From positions 2,885,501-2,949,500 of the forward strand of contig NZ_AP022853.1 of NCBI RefSeq assembly GCF_011764585.1: DNA of 64,000 bases, written 5' to 3'. The notes beneath the pieces were generated by a model. The model was not told where the DNA came from, searched no databases, and saw only the letters and a list, made by a program, of their open reading frames with translations. Numbering within the stretch: the first letter of the stretch is position 1; each line of letters opens with the position of its first letter. Position numbers and translations under genes: made by a program. Shown piece after piece: positions 14,480-23,990 of this stretch. The stretch comes from Sulfurimicrobium lacus (GTDB taxonomy: Bacteria > Pseudomonadota > Gammaproteobacteria > Burkholderiales > Sulfuricellaceae).

Positions 14480-15706
14480 TTAAGCGGTCGGATGCGCACC
14501 TGTCCCGCTGTGCGAAAGGGCGCACTGATTCCGCCCGAGCTCCAGTTCGCTGGCCTTGGCCTCGTCCACCTGGAGCAGGCCGGTGTTGACGCGCCGGATG
14601 TCGTCGTAGGTCGGCGGATGCTGCGGCAGGTGTTCCAGGATGTAGGCGATGAACGCTTCCAGTCCCTCGCCCAGCGCGCGCAAGCCCTCGTTGCTGCCGC
14701 GTAGCGCGCCGATGGGGGCGCGGTAGCAGCCCTGCTGGTCCGCCTCGCCCATGTGGCTGAAGTGGGCGGGGAGCACGACGGTGTGGTCGGGCAAGGCCAG
14801 CACCCGTTGCAGGGAACTGAACAGCAGCGGCGCCCAGGTCTTTGCCCGGCCGCCCAGGTCGGGGCGGCCGATGGTGCCGATGAACAGGGTGTCGCTGGTC
14901 AGCAGAAAGCGGTCGTCCACCAGCGGGTTGGTCATGCCGAGGGTATGGCCGGGGAGATGAAGCGCTCGCACGCTCACCTCGCCCAGCCTGAAGGTCGTTT
15001 CGTCCTCCAGGTAACGGAATGAATATGTCGCCGGGAGCTGGTCGTCGGGATGGATGCTGTCGTAGGGATGCAGCCAGTAATCCACCCCCAGCGCGCTCGC
15101 CAGGGCCATGCCGCCGCTCAGGTGGTCGGCCTGGAGATGGGTGTCGAACACGGTGGTGATGCGCCAGCCCCGCTCGGCGGCGATGCGGGTGTAGACGTCG
15201 ATGTGGCGCGCGGCGTCGACCACCATGGCCTCGCCGCCGCTGGCCAGCAGGTAGCTGAGGCAGCCGCGCGCCGGGCGGCTGATTTGCAGGAGGGTGAGGC
15301 GATCGCTCTCCTCCACGGCGCGCATTTCGTAGTGGTTGCCCCAGGCCGCCATGCCGCCTTCGAGGTTGAACGCCTGATAGCCGAGCCGCCGCAAGCCTTC
15401 CGCTACGTGGGCCGAGGTGTTGCCCTGGGCGCATACCGCCAGGATAGTCTCGTTCCGCGGCAGGCGGTCCTTCAGCCGCTCCGGGACCGCGCGGGCAACG
15501 GCCGCGGCGATTTCCTCATTTTCGTCCTCCAGGTCCAGCAGATCGAAATAGGGGGCGTTGATGGTCGGGATCGAACTCTTGCCCTCGATTTTCCAGGCAT
15601 CGAACTCGTCCTGGTTGCGTACGTCCAGGATGAAGAAGCGGCCGCCCTTCTCCAGTTGACGGTGCAGCTGCGCCGGGCTCCAGGCAGGCATCTCGCGCGT
15701 GGTCAT
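14480..15706 (-). CDS. Rhodanese - persulfide dioxygenase-like metallo-beta-lactamase fusion
   Basis: A 408-residue two-domain protein. Residues 1-130 are a rhodanese domain with the active-site loop CAQGNTSAH near residue 92. Residues about 140-370 are an MBL-fold hydrolase of the ETHE1 type: THLQADHLSGG supplies most metal ligands, with further histidines in LHLPGHTLGMT and VVLPAHFSHMG. ETHE1 enzymes oxidise glutathione persulfide to sulfite, and rhodaneses move sulfane sulfur, so a fusion would channel persulfide in sulfur oxidation or detoxification. That fits the aprBA genes, because its product, sulfite, is the AprBA substrate; the pathway link is inferred. GGGGAGG precedes the ATG. Confidence 0.88.
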   Translation of the reverse strand: MTTREMPAWSPAQLHRQLEKGGRFFILDVRNQDEFDAWKIEGKSSIPTINAPYFDLLDLEDENEEIAAAVARAVPERLKDRLPRNETILAVCAQGNTSAHVAEGLRRLGYQAFNLEGGMAAWGNHYEMRAVEESDRLTLLQISRPARGCLSYLLASGGEAMVVDAARHIDVYTRIAAERGWRITTVFDTHLQADHLSGGMALASALGVDYWLHPYDSIHPDDQLPATYSFRYLEDETTFRLGEVSVRALHLPGHTLGMTNPLVDDRFLLTSDTLFIGTIGRPDLGGRAKTWAPLLFSSLQRVLALPDHTVVLPAHFSHMGEADQQGCYRAPIGALRGSNEGLRALGEGLEAFIAYILEHLPQHPPTYDDIRRVNTGLLQVDEAKASELELGRNQCALSHSGTGAHPTA

Positions 15707-16813: not shown

Positions 16814-18133
16814 TTAAACCCCCGCATCCTTCAGCTTGCGGTACAGGGTGCGCTCGCCCAGCCCCAGCTTCTGGGCCAGCAGGCGCCGGTCGGAGCCGTG
16901 GCGCTCCAGCGCCCAGCGCAGGTAGCGCCGCTCGGCTTCTTCCAGGGGGACGATTTCTTCTTCCGCGGCTTCTTTCACGTAATCCGTAACCGGCTCCAGG
17001 TCCTCGGGCAGGTGCTCGGGCAGGATGGTGTCGCCGTCCGCCAGCAGGCAGGCGCGTTCCAGGATGTTGCGCAGCTCGCGGATATTTCCCGGGAACTTGT
17101 GTTCCAGCAAGGCCGCCAGCGCGTCCGGGTGGAGCGAGCGGCGCTGCTGGCATAGCCTCTGGAGCAGGGAATCCACCAGCAGCGGCAGGTCTTCCCTGCG
17201 TTCGCGCAAGGAAGGGACGCGGATGGGGAAGGCGCTGATGCGGTAGTAGAGGTCGCGGCGGAAGGTGCCCTCCTCCACCATGGCCTTGATGTCGCGGTGG
17301 GTCGCCAGCACCAGGCGGAAGTTGGCGCGCAGCGGCTCCAGGCCGCCCACCCGCCGGAAGGTGCCGCTTTCCAGCAGGCGCAGCAGTTTGACCTGCAGGC
17401 ACAGCGGCATGTCGCCGATCTCGTCGAAAAACAGCGTGCCGCCGGCCGCGGCTTCCACCAGGCCGGTCTTGCGGGTGCTGGCGCCGGTGAACGCGCCCTT
17501 TTCGTAGCCGAACAGTTCGCTGCCGAACAGGGTTTCGGTCACGCCGGCGCAGTCCACCGCCACGAAGGGACCGCGCGCCCGCGTGCTGGCGTCGTGCAGC
17601 GCCTGCGCCGCCAGTTCCTTGCCGGTGCCGGATTCGCCCAGCAGCAGCACCGTGGCGTCCGACGGGGCCACCCGTTCCAGCAGCGCGATCAGGCGGTTGA
17701 ATGCCGGGGAGCGCCCCACCAGGCCTTCCGCCGAGGGGCCGCTGCGCGCGCGGCGCACGGTGCGCACCGTTTCCACGTAGAACAGCACGCGCCCGGCGCG
17801 GTCGCGGATCGGCGCCACTTCCACGTCGACATGTTCCTGCCCGCGCGGCGTGTGATGGATGTGCAGGACGCGCGAGGCCTCCCCGGTATCGCGGCAGGTC
17901 TTGAGCGGGCAGCTCTCTCCGGCCTGGTCGCAGGGCACGGAAATGTGATGGGAAAGTTCGTAGCAGAAGTGGTGCGACAGGTCCTCGGGCACGCCGAATT
18001 GCTCGCGATAGGCGCGGTTGGCCGCCAGCACGCGGTAGTCCGCGCTGATGAACAGGCGCGGCTCGGGCATCGAGTCGATCAGCGCCGCCACGTCGGGCAG
18101 GAGTTCGGGTATGGGGTTTCCAGACAGGTCCAT
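16814..18133 (-). CDS. Sigma-54-dependent activator with cysteine-rich PAS sensor
   Basis: A 439-residue bacterial enhancer-binding protein. Residues about 15-125 form a PAS domain with Cys57, Cys68, Cys75 and Cys80 and the stretch HIHHTPRG. The AAA+ domain (about 138-370) has Walker A GESGTGKE at 166-173, the sigma-54 contact loop GAFTGA at 213-218 and FFDEIGDMP as Walker B. A Fis-type helix-turn-helix ends the protein ([17 protein letters not shown]). It is transcribed away from a molybdoenzyme operon with a good -24/-12 promoter, so it is very probably that operon's activator. No receiver domain is present, so the signal is sensed directly, perhaps redox or a sulfur compound through the cysteines (inference). 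Confidence 0.93.
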
Positions 18134-18304: not shown

Positions 18305-18320
18305 TGGCACAGCGGTTGCT
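18305..18320 (+). promoter_or_regulatory. Sigma-54 (-24/-12) promoter of the molybdoenzyme operon
   Basis: TGGCACAGCGGTTGCT matches the RpoN consensus TGGCAC-N5-TTGCW with the invariant GG and GC exactly 12 bases apart. It lies about 74 bases before the molybdoenzyme ATG, leaving room for a transcription start and leader. Confidence 0.85.
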
Positions 18321-18393: not shown

Positions 18394-21195
18394 ATGAACT
18401 GGAATTTTCCCACCTTAACGCGCCGCGCATTTCTGAAGACGGCTGGCGCAGGCGCGGCGGGCGTCGCCGGACTGGGCCTGCTGAAGCCGGCAGGACTGGC
18501 GGGCGTGGCCGAAGCGGCGGACGGCGAGAGCAAGGTCGTGGAGGAGCAGACCTGCAGCATCTGCAACTTCTGCTCCTCGCTGTGCAACATCCGTGTCACC
18601 ACCCGCGTCGAGGGCGGCATCAAACGCATCGTCAAGATCGACGGCAACCCCGACTCCACCCTCAACCGCGGCAAGATCTGCGCGCGCGGCCAGGCTGGAC
18701 TGCGCCAGACTTACGACACCGACCGGCTGAAAACACCGCTGATCCGGGTGGAAGGTTCAAAGCGCGGCGAGATGAAATTCCGCGCCGCCTCGTGGGAAGA
18801 AGCCTACGCCTACATCGCGAAGCGGCAGAAGGATGCCAACATCCAGCCCTGGGAATGGACCATGGTGGGGGGATGGACCTCATGCGTGTTCTACATGAAC
18901 TGGGCGGTGCCTTTCGCTCTTGCCAACAGCATCCCGAACATCATCGCCTCGCCCATGCAGGCTTGCGTTACCAACGGCCATCTGGGCACGGATACGGTGA
19001 CCGGCAACTTCAACGTTCACGACGAGATCCTGCCCGATTTCGACAACGCCAAGTACATCCTGTTCATCGCCAACAACGCCTCGATCGGCGCGGTGTCGAC
19101 CTGCCGCATGGTGCGCTTCGCCCAGGGGCGCAAGAACGGCGCCAAGGTGGTGGCCATCGATCCGCGGCAGTCCGAGACCGCGTCCAAGGCGGACGAATGG
19201 ATCTCCATCCGGCCCGGCACAGACCTGGACTTCCTGCTGGCCATGCTCAAGACCATGCTCGAAGAGGGTCTCTACGACGCCGATTTCCTGCGCCAGCATT
19301 CCAACATGCCCTTCCTGGCCTACAAGGACGAGAAGGGCCTGCTGCACCTGGCACTCGACGCCAAGGGACAACCCCGCGTGGTGCAGGAACGCAGCTCGGA
19401 AATTCGTACCGTACCGGCCTATACCAACGCCAACGGCATGGACGTGGACGGTCGCCCGTGTTACCCGGCGCTCCACGCACCCGACGGGCTGATGCTGGAC
19501 GGGCACCCGGTGATGACCGTGCTCCAGGCGCAACTCGAAGAGGTTCGGGCCTGCACCCCGGAATGGGCGGAGAACACCACCGGCATCTCCGCCGCCACCA
19601 TTCGGCGCATCGCGCGCGAGTTCGGTGGCGCGCGTCCCGCCATCATCGATCCCGGCTGGCATGGCGGCCGTTACGGCAACATCATCATGATGCGCCGGGT
19701 CCAAGCCATGATTCAGGCGCTGACGGGCGGCATAGACAAGCCCGGCGGCTGGATCATGAGCGGCGAGGTGCACAAGAAGCAGGCAAATACCATCAAGGCC
19801 AAGCAGGAAGGCAAGGAAATCGGGCCGCCGCTCACCAGCATAGTCGGCTTGCCCTTTGCCAAACTGGTCATCGATGTTTTCTCGGACGGCAAGAATTTCA
19901 GCCACGGCAAGCCCGGCTGGTCCTGGGCCTACACCGAACAGGAACGGGCTGCGGGACGACCTTATGTGATGCTGCCGGTGCTGGCGGACGTGGGTTTCAA
20001 GGAATCGGTCGAGGGCACGCTCAACTACAAGGGCGAGCCCTACAACACCCGCGCGGTACTGCTTAACGCCGCCAATCCTGTGCGCCATTACTACCCCGAC
20101 TCCCGCTGGAAGGAGATTCTTTCCCACAAGAACATGGAGCTGGTCATCGCCATCGATGTATTGCCGTGCGACAGCACCATGTATGCGGACGTGATCCTGC
20201 CCAACTCCACCTACCTGGAGCGCGGCGAACCCAATATTTACGCCAACGGGGTGAATCACGATTTGGCGTTCGCTACGCGCTATCCGGCCATCGACCCCTT
20301 GTACGATACGCGCGAGACGACCGATATCTTGTTCAAGATGACGGAAATCATCAGCGGCAAGACCGACGCCCTCATGGATACCGTTGAAAAACTGACCGGG
20401 CTGAACGCTGCCTCGGTCAAGAAGCATCTGGCCCAGAACAGCAAAAATGGGGCGAAAAACCCTATTTCCGCCGCATACCGCGATGTCGCCTTCGAACTGG
20501 CTGCCGAGGAGGCGGGCATTACCGTGAAGCAACTCGATACGGTGCTGCGGGACAAGGGGGTGCTCATCCTGGAAACCAAGGACAAGCTGCTGGAAAAATA
20601 CGCCATGCCCCGGAAACTGCCGATGCCCAGCGGAAGCGGTCGGGTTGAGTTTTACTCCAGTCTGTTCGACGGCCTGCGTGGCATGGGTGGCACGGCACCG
20701 CAATTCAACGTGCTCGCCACGCACATCCCGACGGAATGCCGGAAAGGCGCTTCTTCCGGCAGTTTGGCGGATGACGAATTTTACTTTACCTACGGCAAGG
20801 CTCCCACGGTGTCGTATGCCTCCACCAACAACAACAATCCGGTGCTGGCTGCCATCAACCAGTTCAAGAAGGACATCTACACCCATATCTGGGTGCATCC
20901 GGCGCGTGCGGCGTTTCTCGGCATCCGGGATGGGGACCCGATTTCCATCACGAACTCGAAAACCGGCCAGAGCGCGAACGGTCATGTCCACCTCACTCGG
21001 CTTATTCACCGCGAGGCAGTGTTTTCCTACTCCGGTTTCGGCGCGGAGAACCCGGCGCTGACCCGTGCCGTAGGAGTAGGCACCGCCACCAACAAGCTGG
21101 TTCCCTACGAGCTTGAACCCGTAACCGGTGGTTTTCGTACCCAGGAGTTCACCGTGCGCATCAAGAAGATTGAAGGAAAAGGAGTACAGGCATGA
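18394..21195 (+). CDS. Tat-exported molybdopterin oxidoreductase, polysulfide/thiosulfate reductase-like catalytic subunit
   Basis: A 933-residue molybdoenzyme of the DMSO reductase superfamily. A Tat signal (TRRAFLKTAGAG, residues 9-20) sends it to the periplasm. A [4Fe-4S] site follows: CNFCSSLC near 57-64 with the fourth cysteine at 96 (GKICARG). The presumed molybdenum ligand is Cys about 191 in QACVTNGHLG, which places it with the Cys-ligated polysulfide/thiosulfate/tetrathionate/arsenate reductase clade. Later blocks include HGGRYGN, ILPNSTYLERGEPN and the C-terminal pterin domain. With the ferredoxin and NrfD subunits it forms a complex iron-sulfur molybdoenzyme linked to quinone. The substrate cannot be read from sequence; a sulfur oxyanion or polysulfide is most likely. 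Confidence 0.9.
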   Translation: MNWNFPTLTRRAFLKTAGAGAAGVAGLGLLKPAGLAGVAEAADGESKVVEEQTCSICNFCSSLCNIRVTTRVEGGIKRIVKIDGNPDSTLNRGKICARGQAGLRQTYDTDRLKTPLIRVEGSKRGEMKFRAASWEEAYAYIAKRQKDANIQPWEWTMVGGWTSCVFYMNWAVPFALANSIPNIIASPMQACVTNGHLGTDTVTGNFNVHDEILPDFDNAKYILFIANNASIGAVSTCRMVRFAQGRKNGAKVVAIDPRQSETASKADEWISIRPGTDLDFLLAMLKTMLEEGLYDADFLRQHSNMPFLAYKDEKGLLHLALDAKGQPRVVQERSSEIRTVPAYTNANGMDVDGRPCYPALHAPDGLMLDGHPVMTVLQAQLEEVRACTPEWAENTTGISAATIRRIAREFGGARPAIIDPGWHGGRYGNIIMMRRVQAMIQALTGGIDKPGGWIMSGEVHKKQANTIKAKQEGKEIGPPLTSIVGLPFAKLVIDVFSDGKNFSHGKPGWSWAYTEQERAAGRPYVMLPVLADVGFKESVEGTLNYKGEPYNTRAVLLNAANPVRHYYPDSRWKEILSHKNMELVIAIDVLPCDSTMYADVILPNSTYLERGEPNIYANGVNHDLAFATRYPAIDPLYDTRETTDILFKMTEIISGKTDALMDTVEKLTGLNAASVKKHLAQNSKNGAKNPISAAYRDVAFELAAEEAGITVKQLDTVLRDKGVLILETKDKLLEKYAMPRKLPMPSGSGRVEFYSSLFDGLRGMGGTAPQFNVLATHIPTECRKGASSGSLADDEFYFTYGKAPTVSYASTNNNNPVLAAINQFKKDIYTHIWVHPARAAFLGIRDGDPISITNSKTGQSANGHVHLTRLIHREAVFSYSGFGAENPALTRAVGVGTATNKLVPYELEPVTGGFRTQEFTVRIKKIEGKGVQA

Positions 21196-21803
21196 CCCGC
21201 TACGCGATGGTGATTGATCTGAATACCTGCGTCGGCTGCAATGCGTGCATGGCGGCCTGCTCGATGGAGAACCAGACGCCGGTATGGAAAGGCGCCTGGC
21301 GCACTTATGTGCACGAAAAGGAAATCGGCGTGGCCGAGCAGGTGCGGCGGCGCTTTTTCCCGCGCCTGTGCAACCACTGCGACAACCCGCCGTGCCTCAC
21401 GGTGTGCCCCACCGGCGCCACTTACCAGCGCGACGACGGCATCGTGCTGATCGACCCGGAGCGCTGCATGGGCTGCCGCGCCTGCGCCATGGCCTGCCCC
21501 TACGACGCGCGCTACGAGGTGACCTACGACGACATCCGCGTCGGCAAGGAATTCTACGGCGAGTTGCAGCGCACCAGCCCGAGCATGGACAAATGCTCGT
21601 TCTGCGCCCACCGCGTGGACAAGGGCCAGAAGCCGGCCTGCGTCGAAACCTGCGTCGGCTCGGCGCGCCAGTTCGGCGACCTGGACAACCCCTCCGACCC
21701 GGTGGCGCAACTGGTGGCGAGCGGCGTTGCCCAGCCGCTCATGCCGCACCTCGGCACACGGCCCAACGTGTACTACATCGACGACATGAAGCGGAAAGGC
21801 TGA
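21192..21803 (+). CDS. 4Fe-4S electron transfer subunit of the molybdoenzyme
   Basis: A 203-residue subunit of the DmsB/PhsB/PsrB type. Four cysteine groups for four [4Fe-4S] clusters are visible: CVGCNACMAACSMEN, CNHCDNPPCLTVCPTGA, CMGCRACAMACPYDAR and CSFCAHRVDKGQKPACVETC. It has no signal of its own, as expected for a partner exported with the Tat-bearing catalytic subunit. Its ATG overlaps the stop of the catalytic gene (ATGA), a sign of translational coupling. It would carry electrons between the molybdenum centre and the membrane subunit. Confidence 0.94.
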   Translation: MTRYAMVIDLNTCVGCNACMAACSMENQTPVWKGAWRTYVHEKEIGVAEQVRRRFFPRLCNHCDNPPCLTVCPTGATYQRDDGIVLIDPERCMGCRACAMACPYDARYEVTYDDIRVGKEFYGELQRTSPSMDKCSFCAHRVDKGQKPACVETCVGSARQFGDLDNPSDPVAQLVASGVAQPLMPHLGTRPNVYYIDDMKRKG

Positions 21804-21806
21804 GCC

Positions 21807-22763
21807 ATGAATACCATGACCTACACGACGCAACACATCTGGACCTGGTGGATCGCCCTGTACCTGTTCTTCGGCGGCCTGGGCGCGGCGACCCTCACCA
21901 TCACCTTCCTCACCGACATGTACTGCCGCCCGCACCGCAAACTTGTTCTCTGGGGCGCGCTTTCCGGGGTGGTGCTGCTGGCGATCAGCTCTGCGGTGCT
22001 GTTCGGCCACCTGCTGCACCACACCGCGGTGATCTACGTACTCAACCCGCTGGTGTTCATCTTCAAGCCGGATTCATGGATCGCCTGGGGCACCCAGTTC
22101 ATCCTGTGGATGATGGTGTGGGGCATGCTCTACGCCCTGCCCTACATGCGCGAAACGCCGCTGTTCATGCGCATCCCGCTGGTGCGCTCCATCCTGCAGT
22201 GGCCGCTGGTGAGCTGGCTTTCCGCCTGCTGCATGAAGCGCCGCCGCATCGTGGGCTGGCTGGCGTCGATCAACGGCATCGGCACCGCGGTCTACACCGG
22301 CCTCTTGATCCAGTCCTTCCCCGCCGTGGCGCTGTGGCACAACCCCGGCGTGCCGCTGCTGTTCACGGTGTCAGCCTTCTCCACCGCCTTCGCCTACCTG
22401 CTGCTGCTCTTGAACATCTTCATCACCGACGAAAACGACCAGGACATCCGCCACCGCTACGAGCGCATGGACCTGATCCTGATCGCCACCGAGCTGGTGA
22501 TCCTGTTCAGTTTCTTCAATTACACCCTGTCAGGCTCGGAATCGGGCTACCGCTCGGCGCAACTGCTGTGGGGAGACTGGGGCTGGCTCATCGGCTTCAT
22601 CGGCTTCGGCCTGCTGGTGCCGTTCATGATCGAGCTCAGGGGCGTAACCAAAGGCTGGCGCGGCCGCTTCCCCACCGTGGCGGCGGCGGTGCTGGTGCTG
22701 ATGGGCGGCTACCTGCTGCGCCACTACTTCATGTACGCGGGGGTCTATGCCTACCCCTGGTGA
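21807..22763 (+). CDS. NrfD/PsrC-type membrane subunit of the molybdoenzyme
   Basis: A 318-residue integral membrane protein with eight to nine hydrophobic helices, beginning HIWTWWIALYLFFGGLGA, which is the typical NrfD/PsrC opening with a Gly-rich first helix. Such subunits anchor the complex and exchange electrons with quinone. It starts three bases after the iron-sulfur gene and overlaps the next gene by 17 bases. Conserved acidic residues in helices (ITDENDQD, FNYTLSGSESGY) may belong to the quinone or proton pathway; this is an inference from the family. Confidence 0.92.
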   Translation: MNTMTYTTQHIWTWWIALYLFFGGLGAATLTITFLTDMYCRPHRKLVLWGALSGVVLLAISSAVLFGHLLHHTAVIYVLNPLVFIFKPDSWIAWGTQFILWMMVWGMLYALPYMRETPLFMRIPLVRSILQWPLVSWLSACCMKRRRIVGWLASINGIGTAVYTGLLIQSFPAVALWHNPGVPLLFTVSAFSTAFAYLLLLLNIFITDENDQDIRHRYERMDLILIATELVILFSFFNYTLSGSESGYRSAQLLWGDWGWLIGFIGFGLLVPFMIELRGVTKGWRGRFPTVAAAVLVLMGGYLLRHYFMYAGVYAYPW

Positions 22764-23298
22764 ACGCCTGCGCCTGCTCGGCGCCTTGCTGGCGGCGCCG
22801 GTGGCGGAATCGCGCGAACTGCTGGAAGATTTTTCCGCCCATCACGGATGGCTGGCGGCGCCCCTCGAGGAACTCGCCGCCACCTCGCTTGAGGAATGGC
22901 AGGCGGAGCATACGCGCCTGTTCGTCAACGGCCATCCGCGCACCGTTTGCCCGCCCTTCCAATCCGCCTGGCTCGACGGCATGATGCCCGGTCCCGCGAC
23001 CGCCGCGGTGGCCGGACTGTACCGCAGGCTCGGGCTGGAGGAAGATGGCATTTCGCCCGATTTTCTCGGCACCATGCTGGAATGCGCCGCACACCTCGAA
23101 GAATCGCTGGGCGAACCAGGGCAGGGCGAGCAAGTTCAGGCCGTGCAAGTTCAGGCCGTGAAAGACGCGCTGTGGCAGGAACACCTCGGCCGCTGGCTGC
23201 CGCAATTCACCCAGGCGCTGCGCGACGAGAGCCGCCTGGCGCTCTACCGCGTGCTGGGCGGCCAGCTCGCCGCCGTGTGCGGAGAAAACTGTGCCTGA
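22747..23298 (+). CDS. TorD/DmsD-like molybdoenzyme chaperone
   Basis: A 183-residue, largely helical protein. The pattern RLRLLGALLAAPVAESRELLEDF near the start and LEEWQAEHTRLFVNG near residue 48 matches the TorD family, whose members bind Tat signals and help insert the molybdenum cofactor before export. Its place in the operon fits that role for the Tat-exported catalytic subunit. The gene contains an exact 15-base tandem duplication at 23131-23160, giving the duplicated peptide QVQAV. It overlaps both neighbours (17 bases upstream, 8 downstream). Confidence 0.85.
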   Translation: MPTPGERLRLLGALLAAPVAESRELLEDFSAHHGWLAAPLEELAATSLEEWQAEHTRLFVNGHPRTVCPPFQSAWLDGMMPGPATAAVAGLYRRLGLEEDGISPDFLGTMLECAAHLEESLGEPGQGEQVQAVQVQAVKDALWQEHLGRWLPQFTQALRDESRLALYRVLGGQLAAVCGENCA

Positions 23299-23857
23299 GC
23301 CAGCCTGGGAAGTGGGCGACGCCTTCCTGCACGACGACCAGGCCGTGGCCACGGCCGTCAGCCAGTGCTTCGAGGAAATCTACCGGCGCCAGTTCCACGA
23401 CGAATGGCTGGTGAACCACGATTTGCCCATCGAAGTACGCGCTTTCCGCCGCATGGAAGGCTGGTGCGTGTTCCTGCTGCTCACGCCGTGGATGATGTCG
23501 CGGCTGTTCATCGCCGAACGCGACCCGGGCATCGCCATACCCCCCGACTGGAGCGCCGAGCAGCGCGCCCACGCCCCCTACGAGGTCATCGGCCCGGCGC
23601 TGTCGTTCACGCTGCTCGGCAATGCCCAGCAGGCGCATCTCAACCACACCCCGATGCTGGGGCACTACCTGGTGCAGCCGCTGGTCCAGTCGATGGAGCG
23701 CTTCGCCGGCGCCGACGACGTGTTCGCGGCCTGGAACGACGTCATCCGCACCCGCAACCGCGTCATGGAAGAACAGAAGCGCGAATGCGGCTGGCAGAAG
23801 GAAGTTTCAAGGCGCGAGTTCTTCGCAAGGCTGGTGCGGGGAAAGCCGGCGACGTAG
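23291..23857 (+). CDS. HybE-family (hydrogenase chaperone-like) protein in the molybdoenzyme operon
   Basis: A 188-residue protein starting at GTG and overlapping the TorD-like gene. The core FEEIYRRQFHD, then EVRAFRRMEGWCVFLLLTPW with MMSRLFIA, and later LSFTLLGNAQQA with a helical end around VQSMERF resemble HybE, the E. coli hydrogenase-2 protein that proofreads the Tat signal of the small subunit. No hydrogenase gene is in the window, so it more likely serves as a second chaperone for this molybdoenzyme (inference). A C-terminal SRREFFARLVRG is an odd twin-arginine-like string. The TAG stop falls inside a palindromic repeat, so the end may be non-native. Confidence 0.75.
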   Translation: MPEPAWEVGDAFLHDDQAVATAVSQCFEEIYRRQFHDEWLVNHDLPIEVRAFRRMEGWCVFLLLTPWMMSRLFIAERDPGIAIPPDWSAEQRAHAPYEVIGPALSFTLLGNAQQAHLNHTPMLGHYLVQPLVQSMERFAGADDVFAAWNDVIRTRNRVMEEQKRECGWQKEVSRREFFARLVRGKPAT

Positions 23858-23990
23858 GGCGTCAATAACCGCAAGGGTCATGCCCGCCAAGAGAGTACCG
23901 CCTTGCGGTGATCTTGGCGCCATAAGCGAAGCGCATTGCGCCGGCTTCACAACACGCGGCGCAATGCCCGTTGGTTATTGCGCCCTACGT
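23852..23990. repeat. 139-bp palindromic repeat (GTAGGGCG...CGCCCTAC)
   Basis: The arms ACGTAGGGCG and CGCCCTACGT are perfect complements at the ends and extend inward as CAATAACC/GGTTATTG after one extra base. The centre holds further partial symmetry (GCGCATTGCGCC, GGCGCAATGCCC). The left arm contains the stop codon of the HybE-like gene; the right arm abuts the next gene's stop. No transposase frame. It may also act as a two-way terminator between the convergent genes. Confidence 0.75.

Follow-up and report, generated by a model that had tools for sequence, protein, structure and literature searches.

Our analysis of a 64,000-nucleotide stretch of the Sulfurimicrobium lacus genome (the window) reveals a HybE-family protein encoded at the end of an operon for a Tat-exported molybdoenzyme. 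The HybE-like protein very probably takes part in maturing this molybdoenzyme, and we propose that it would act as a dedicated second maturation chaperone for the exported enzyme of its own operon, beside a TorD-like partner.

A HybE-family protein in a molybdoenzyme operon

The HybE-like gene (Table 1) starts with GTG and encodes 188 residues, and its product is a HybE-family protein. In particular, the product matches PF11939 (NiFe-hyd_HybE) at 75.1 bits, against a gathering cut-off of 25 (E 7.2e-21), with residues 20–179 aligned to profile positions 3–146 of 147, and PF11939 is the sole Pfam family matched. The protein scores below the cut-off of the hydrogenase-specific profile TIGR03993 (45.5 vs 78.5 bits) and likewise below the curated cut-off of NF007776 (25.9 vs 188). 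In a Foldseek search with an AlphaFold2 model of the protein (mean pLDDT 86.3), the sole solved structure with E < 0.001 is E. coli HybE, 2kc5 (E 1.2e-4, TM 0.48/0.54); VIA-align aligns 125 residues with 2kc5 (Z 8.3, rmsd 4.2), followed by a next row at Z 5.0. The rows under 2kc5, at Z 5.0 and less, were dismissed as common arrangements.

The HybE-like gene is the last in a packed five-gene operon, all on the forward strand, in the order Tat-signal PsrA/PhsA-like molybdoenzyme, 4Fe-4S subunit, NrfD anchor, TorD-like chaperone, and HybE, with the HybE-like GTG start overlapping the TorD-like stop by 8 bases. Neither in the window nor at the related loci does this operon include hydrogenase genes. 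The catalytic subunit is of the PsrA/PhsA type by domain content, subunit order, and a Cys that, from its place, we take to be the Mo ligand; its best solved relative, and the only one with E < 1e-30, is 2vpw (E 1.3e-75), and it misses the PhsA equivalog cut-off (343 vs 694). No signal peptide is seen in the 4Fe-4S subunit in the N-termini of 8 loci. Despite the Psr-like operon, this subunit lies barely over the NCBI DsrO cut-off (202.5 vs 200), and automatic annotation may label it DsrO. The TorD-like protein misses the equivalog cut-offs of both TorD (25 vs 132) and DmsD (18.4 vs 162), and is, as judged by profile, a NarJ-family protein of a kind other than TorD or DmsD.

An earlier note on this DNA had proposed a HybE-like protein here, its overlap with a TorD-like gene behind a Tat-exported molybdoenzyme, and two dissimilar chaperones for one enzyme. 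The first proposal is borne out by the profile search and the 2kc5 fold match; the second agrees with the 8-base overlap, the PF02613 match, and the twin-arginine signal of the enzyme; and, of the third, two unrelated chaperone families (PF11939 and PF02613) do stand behind one Tat-exported enzyme.

Table 1. Features of the operon and its surroundings, in window coordinates
Feature	Position	Strand	Basis
Rhodanese + metallo-beta-lactamase fusion	14480–15706	-	
Divergent sigma-54 activator (PAS, AAA+, Fis-type HTH)	16814–18133	-	Pfam
-24/-12 (sigma-54 type) promoter-like site	18305–18320	+	Pattern TGGCACNNNNNTTGCW; 89 bases upstream of molybdoenzyme start
PsrA/PhsA-like molybdoenzyme catalytic subunit with Tat signal	18394–21195	+	PF00384, PF04879, PF01568
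n-region of the molybdoenzyme Tat signal	18394–18435	+	Comparison of relatives
4Fe-4S electron-transfer subunit	21192–21803	+	Fer4_11, 90 bits
NrfD-type membrane anchor	21807–22763	+	PF03916, 89.8 bits
TorD/NarJ-family chaperone	22747–23298	+	PF02613, 78 bits, cut-off 22.2
HybE-family protein	23291–23857	+	PF11939, 75.1 bits; fold; tree branch
Tat-like motif S-R-R-E-F-F, residues 173–178 of the HybE-like protein	23807–23824	+	Comparison of C-termini
Inverted repeat	23853–23990		By eye

With its sigma-54 type site and the adjoining divergent activator gene, the operon is, by prediction, a regulated one. The pattern TGGCACNNNNNTTGCW has a single match in the window (0.13 expected; at least one match in 11 of 100 shuffles). 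Some relatives (L003/L049, L052, L053, L115-L125) encode a homologue of the activator divergently next to the operon; others have none in that place. Similar -24/-12 sites were found by script in 7 of 28 upstream regions; because the site at L008 is unconvincing and L049 is the same contig as L003, such a site is not general across these operons.

Two further observations concern the flanks. Right after the HybE stop lies an inverted repeat, GTAGGGCG(T)CAATAACC ... GGTTATTGCGCCCTAC, perhaps a REP-like element. Near the operon, the rhodanese/metallo-beta-lactamase fusion is a possible sulfur-handling gene, with weak matches in just two of the compared loci.

Recurrence of the operon and a separate branch of HybE proteins

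The same operon is present in 28 other genomes of Pseudomonadota (9 of the order, 5 of the class, and 14 of the phylum), with genes missing only at contig ends. Within the order, PF11939 is present in 57 of 399 genomes, and its low-scoring form (75 bits or less) occurs in nine, including S. lacus, with all other rows at 96 bits or more. At the eight other low-scoring loci, NrfD and TorD genes directly precede HybE in every case, and the 4Fe-4S and molybdoenzyme genes are also present at seven, the eighth being cut by a contig end; in one of the eight, the HybE gene runs off the end of its contig. A further genome of the order, G395, has all five genes in order, with a HybE missed by the Pfam search and found with a local profile. 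Among 12 high-scoring loci of the order that were examined, 10 lie by hyp genes and 2 do not.

A profile of the branch to which the window protein belongs has matches in 16 of 369 genomes of the class: S. lacus itself, five strong matches, all in the full operon, two weaker matches without the operon, and eight weak matches on the hydrogenase side of the tree. In the phylum the same profile has matches in 19 of 398 genomes: S. lacus, 14 operon genomes, and four with weak matches, of which three fall on the hydrogenase side and the other is an orphan. All 15 loci in the 14 phylum genomes are in the operon as far as their contigs reach; the contig starts inside the 4Fe-4S gene in two and inside the enzyme gene in one. 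No strong branch member was seen outside the molybdoenzyme operon among the loci examined in order, class, and phylum. A separate scan named Sulfuricella, Hydrogenophilales, and Sideroxydans assemblies as relatives. Neither the HybE-like protein (E 0.001) nor the molybdoenzyme (E 1e-60) had a match in a plasmid collection.

We built a tree of 86 HybE proteins, unrooted and with a bootstrap that is not settled. One branch of it (support 100/99) separates the 35 proteins most like the window protein from all the rest; 32 of the 35 are encoded in the operon and 3 have no such operon nearby. In this tree, the operon HybE proteins group together, separate from hydrogenase HybE. The three others (L090:10446-10919, L091:10101-10586, and L126:104-631) are orphan HybE-like genes with long branches on the molybdo side and with no molybdoenzyme operon in the stretch examined; they are a third context for HybE.

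The Tat signal of the catalytic subunit and the proposed division of labor

Comparison of the catalytic subunits reveals an n-region, W-x-F-P-x-L-T-RR-x-F-L, that is fixed across relatives. Signals are readable at 28 of 30 enzyme loci (two are cut, and one locus repeats the contig of another), and W at residue 3, P at residue 6, and RR at residues 10–11 are each present in 28/28, with the place of RR checked in 26/26. Identity along the signal is 0.65 at residues 2–14, 0.47 at residues 15–27, and 0.33 at residues 28–42; the whole molybdoenzyme averages 0.61, and four tested mature stretches 0.63–0.78. The high identity of the n-region is partly the Tat motif itself, since any Tat signal should contain RR, F, and L; the fixed positions beyond that motif are W, F/Y, P, and L/M.

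At the place where E. coli TorD and DmsD have DH, which we take to be part of the EPxDH motif, all 32 TorD partners read D[YFW]LG (D-F-L-G in the window protein). The missing DH counts as weak evidence, because a second S. lacus NarJ-family protein (L017) is also without DH and has no HybE beside it.

The available text of published work on other chaperones reports that HybE binds the Tat signal of HybO (PMC4273604), that the epitope of TorD is located at the C-terminal end of its signal and that of NapD overlaps the RR motif (PMC3712460), and that E. coli REMPs rely mostly on the H- and C-regions, with the RR part of the n-region still involved (PMC3316669). From the fixed n-region, these published epitopes, and the TorD-like partner without DH, we infer that TorD works on the cofactor and HybE on the n-region. 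Specifically, the TorD-like partner would help load the catalytic subunit with its molybdenum cofactor, while the HybE-like protein would bind and mask the n-region of the Tat signal of that subunit and perhaps also the neighbouring N-terminal 4Fe-4S site. In the order of events that we envisage, masking would last until the catalytic and iron-sulfur subunits are assembled, after which the HybE-like protein would release and the pair would be exported. We consider this explanation as a whole, a HybE that masks the n-region beside a TorD that inserts the cofactor, to be moderately probable; that the n-region in particular is the target of the HybE-like protein we favor by a slight balance.

The HybE-like protein could instead act on the iron-sulfur side, holding either the separate 4Fe-4S subunit or the N-terminal 4Fe-4S domain of the catalytic subunit while clusters are loaded or subunits assembled, without reading the Tat signal, an arrangement that we judge unlikely. 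In its favor, the known client of HybE is an Fe-S protein, the hydrogenase small subunit HybO. That HybE binds the signal of HybO is reported in the available text of PMC4273604. The distances among HybE proteins track those of the four partners (r 0.72–0.85, with 0 of 1000 permutations as high; 26 of 32 loci), in keeping with the role that we propose in maturing the enzyme; that they follow FeS (0.83) and TorD (0.85) no less closely than MopB (0.72) is a point for the iron-sulfur arrangement. These correlations, however, reflect mostly shared descent, and the fixed n-region suggests a reader of that segment.

Retention of HybE with the enzyme

Searches for the molybdoenzyme (E 1e-100 in 398 phylum genomes and E 1e-70 in 399 order genomes) identified it, outside S. 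lacus, in 14 and 8 genomes, respectively, 22 in all. This HybE is present in 21 of the 22 (13 of the phylum, 7 of the order, and G395), on the contig of the enzyme in 20 of these 21; in G901 the enzyme and HybE are on different short contigs. In the remaining genome, G895, which has the molybdoenzyme, no HybE was found, and the contig ends 941 bases after the enzyme gene.

This retention bears on the idea that the HybE-like protein is co-transcribed with the operon and has its main role elsewhere, as a general Tat/redox-enzyme helper or as a passenger that regulation has kept in place. It evolves faster in sequence than its neighbors, HybE being the least conserved of the five operon proteins (mean identity 0.36), and orphan HybE genes occur in other contexts, both of which fit a role elsewhere; but its presence in 21 of 22 other enzyme genomes, and the absence of strong branch members outside the operon among the loci seen, make such a role improbable, and we favor a role in the maturation of the molybdoenzyme.

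Hydrogenases of the host and of related genomes

The S. lacus genome, a single contig of 3.83 Mb, has two PF11939 genes: the window gene (74.9 bits in this search) and a gene at 3565313 (160 bits), whose cluster includes hyp genes and a hydrogenase large subunit. The two hydrogenase large subunits of the genome, at 3556125 and 3562803, are both near the HybE at 3565313. Because the hydrogenase cluster holds its own, higher-scoring HybE, the window gene is not the hydrogenase HybE of S. lacus and was ruled out for that role. Since PF11939 matches only two places in the genome, neither of two further NarJ/TorD-family genes of S. lacus has a HybE beside it.

The earlier note had described the molybdoenzyme operon as one without hydrogenase, a description that stands for the operon, which has no hydrogenase genes, but not for the genome, which has the two large subunits. 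It had also named as counter-evidence a hydrogenase small-subunit gene elsewhere with the window gene as its only HybE, and the stronger HybE beside the hydrogenases speaks against this; the recurrence of the HybE–TorD pairing, which it had suggested checking, is seen in the 28 other genomes, in many of which no hydrogenase was found.

Specifically, with PF00374 at E 1e-20 as the test for a hydrogenase large subunit, no large subunit was found in 14 of 27 other operon genomes, some of which are incomplete assemblies (12 of 19 in class and phylum, and 2 of 8 in the order). In the good-quality subset from class and phylum, 7 of 12 have no match at that threshold. Two operon genomes of the order, one of them rated 100% complete, show only PF00374 matches of 37–64 bits, which we take to be the related complex I subunit. 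In some operon genomes with a hydrogenase (G106, G196, and G302 among them), no second HybE was found at E 1e-5. In G182, G014, G213, and G243, a hydrogenase large subunit is present and HybE was not found at E 1e-5. Two hydrogenase-side HybE genes, L058:9281-9781 and L059:9755-10258, have no hyp genes in the stretch examined, and both genomes have another HybE; the protein adjoining the L058 gene presumably resembles SelO.

That the HybE-like protein serves the [NiFe]-hydrogenases of the same cells and is encoded here by chance, as its membership of PF11939 and the operon genomes with hydrogenases and without other HybE might suggest, is very improbable and already largely refuted by the 14 of 27 operon genomes without a large subunit at E 1e-20, by the separate HybE of the S. 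lacus hydrogenase cluster, and by G182, whose large subunit is by score of the same class as that of G106 and which yet has no HybE at E 1e-5.

A Tat-like motif in the HybE C-terminal tail

Comparison of HybE C-termini reveals a twin-arginine motif, [RK]R-x-[FLMIVY]-[LFIM], within the last 40 residues of 86/86 unique complete sequences, from both branches of the tree. Among 280 sequences in 12 control sets taken from these loci, one has the motif (NrfD 1/33; the FeS and HybA sets overlap), as do 3.2% of shuffled HybE tails. A core-only HybE profile, itself built from these 86 proteins, recovers the same 86, all with the motif; because most loci were gathered with PF11939 or with profiles covering the motif, family members that lack it may have escaped detection.

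The position before the motif holds S or T in 82 of 86 tails. Of the two basic residues, the first is R in 74 tails and K in 12, and the second is R in all 86; after one residue, F or L follows in 76, and then L or F in 85. The motif is followed by 6 to 20 residues. E. coli HybE, with the C-terminal end GRRALLFGRRSGENA, has it as well, as GRRALL. In the molybdo branch (32 sequences) eight columns are invariant, two of them being the arginines of the motif and one the start residue. The motif resembles the Tat consensus S/TRRxFLK (as quoted in the available text of PMC3316669). The best 12-residue hydropathy averages -0.25 (highest 1.2) in 42 scorable HybE tails and 1.41 (lowest 0.75) in 28 MopB signals, clearly lower in the tails on average, with overlapping ranges. 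In the models of both the HybE-like protein and a hydrogenase HybE, the motif sits in a low-confidence tail: residues 168–173 and 184–188 are below 50 in the former, and blocks near 60 occur in the latter.

We read the motif as a putative short linear motif that imitates a Tat n-region. Our tentative and somewhat doubtful extension is that a pseudo Tat signal on a floppy C-terminal tail is common to all HybE proteins. This tail might fill the signal pocket of HybE itself until a real signal displaces it, or might dock on TatC so that HybE hands its client to the translocase; the molybdoenzyme branch would then be evidence that such a device works beyond hydrogenases.

Relation to known systems and implications

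The window protein shares with E. coli HybE and the HybE of hydrogenase clusters the PF11939 family, the 2kc5 alpha-beta fold, and the C-terminal [RK]R-x-[FL]-[LF] motif, and, like E. coli HybE, the hydrogenase-2 chaperone, it is small and cytoplasmic, and its gene accompanies that of a Tat-exported redox enzyme. It differs from hydrogenase HybE in its separate branch (100/99), in its score under the TIGR03993 cut-off, in having no surrounding hydrogenase genes, and in its neighbor enzyme, a molybdoenzyme that also has a TorD-type chaperone. It resembles the small non-TorD chaperone described in the available text of PMC3712460 in its proposed action on the n-region of a molybdoenzyme Tat signal, and differs from it in matching only PF11939 in Pfam and in the presence of a TorD-family protein as well.

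The operon resembles PsrABC/PhsABC and the nrfD-hybA-bisC operons with TorD/DmsD (available text of PMC4464133) in its molybdoenzyme, 4Fe-4S protein, NrfD, and NarJ-family chaperone, and differs from them in having HybE as a fifth gene. In its available text, PMC4464133, a survey of NarJ-family operons, names HybE once, in the introduction. In the literature searched, which covered few subscription journals, we found neither a HybE in a molybdoenzyme operon nor the C-terminal HybE motif.

If the proposed role is correct, HybE would move from a hydrogenase-specific family to a wider export-proofreading family, and the operon would be a natural example of two unrelated chaperones on one molybdoenzyme. 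HybE annotation by itself is no evidence for hydrogenase. A family-wide signal-like tail would make a hand-over from chaperone to Tat translocase testable.
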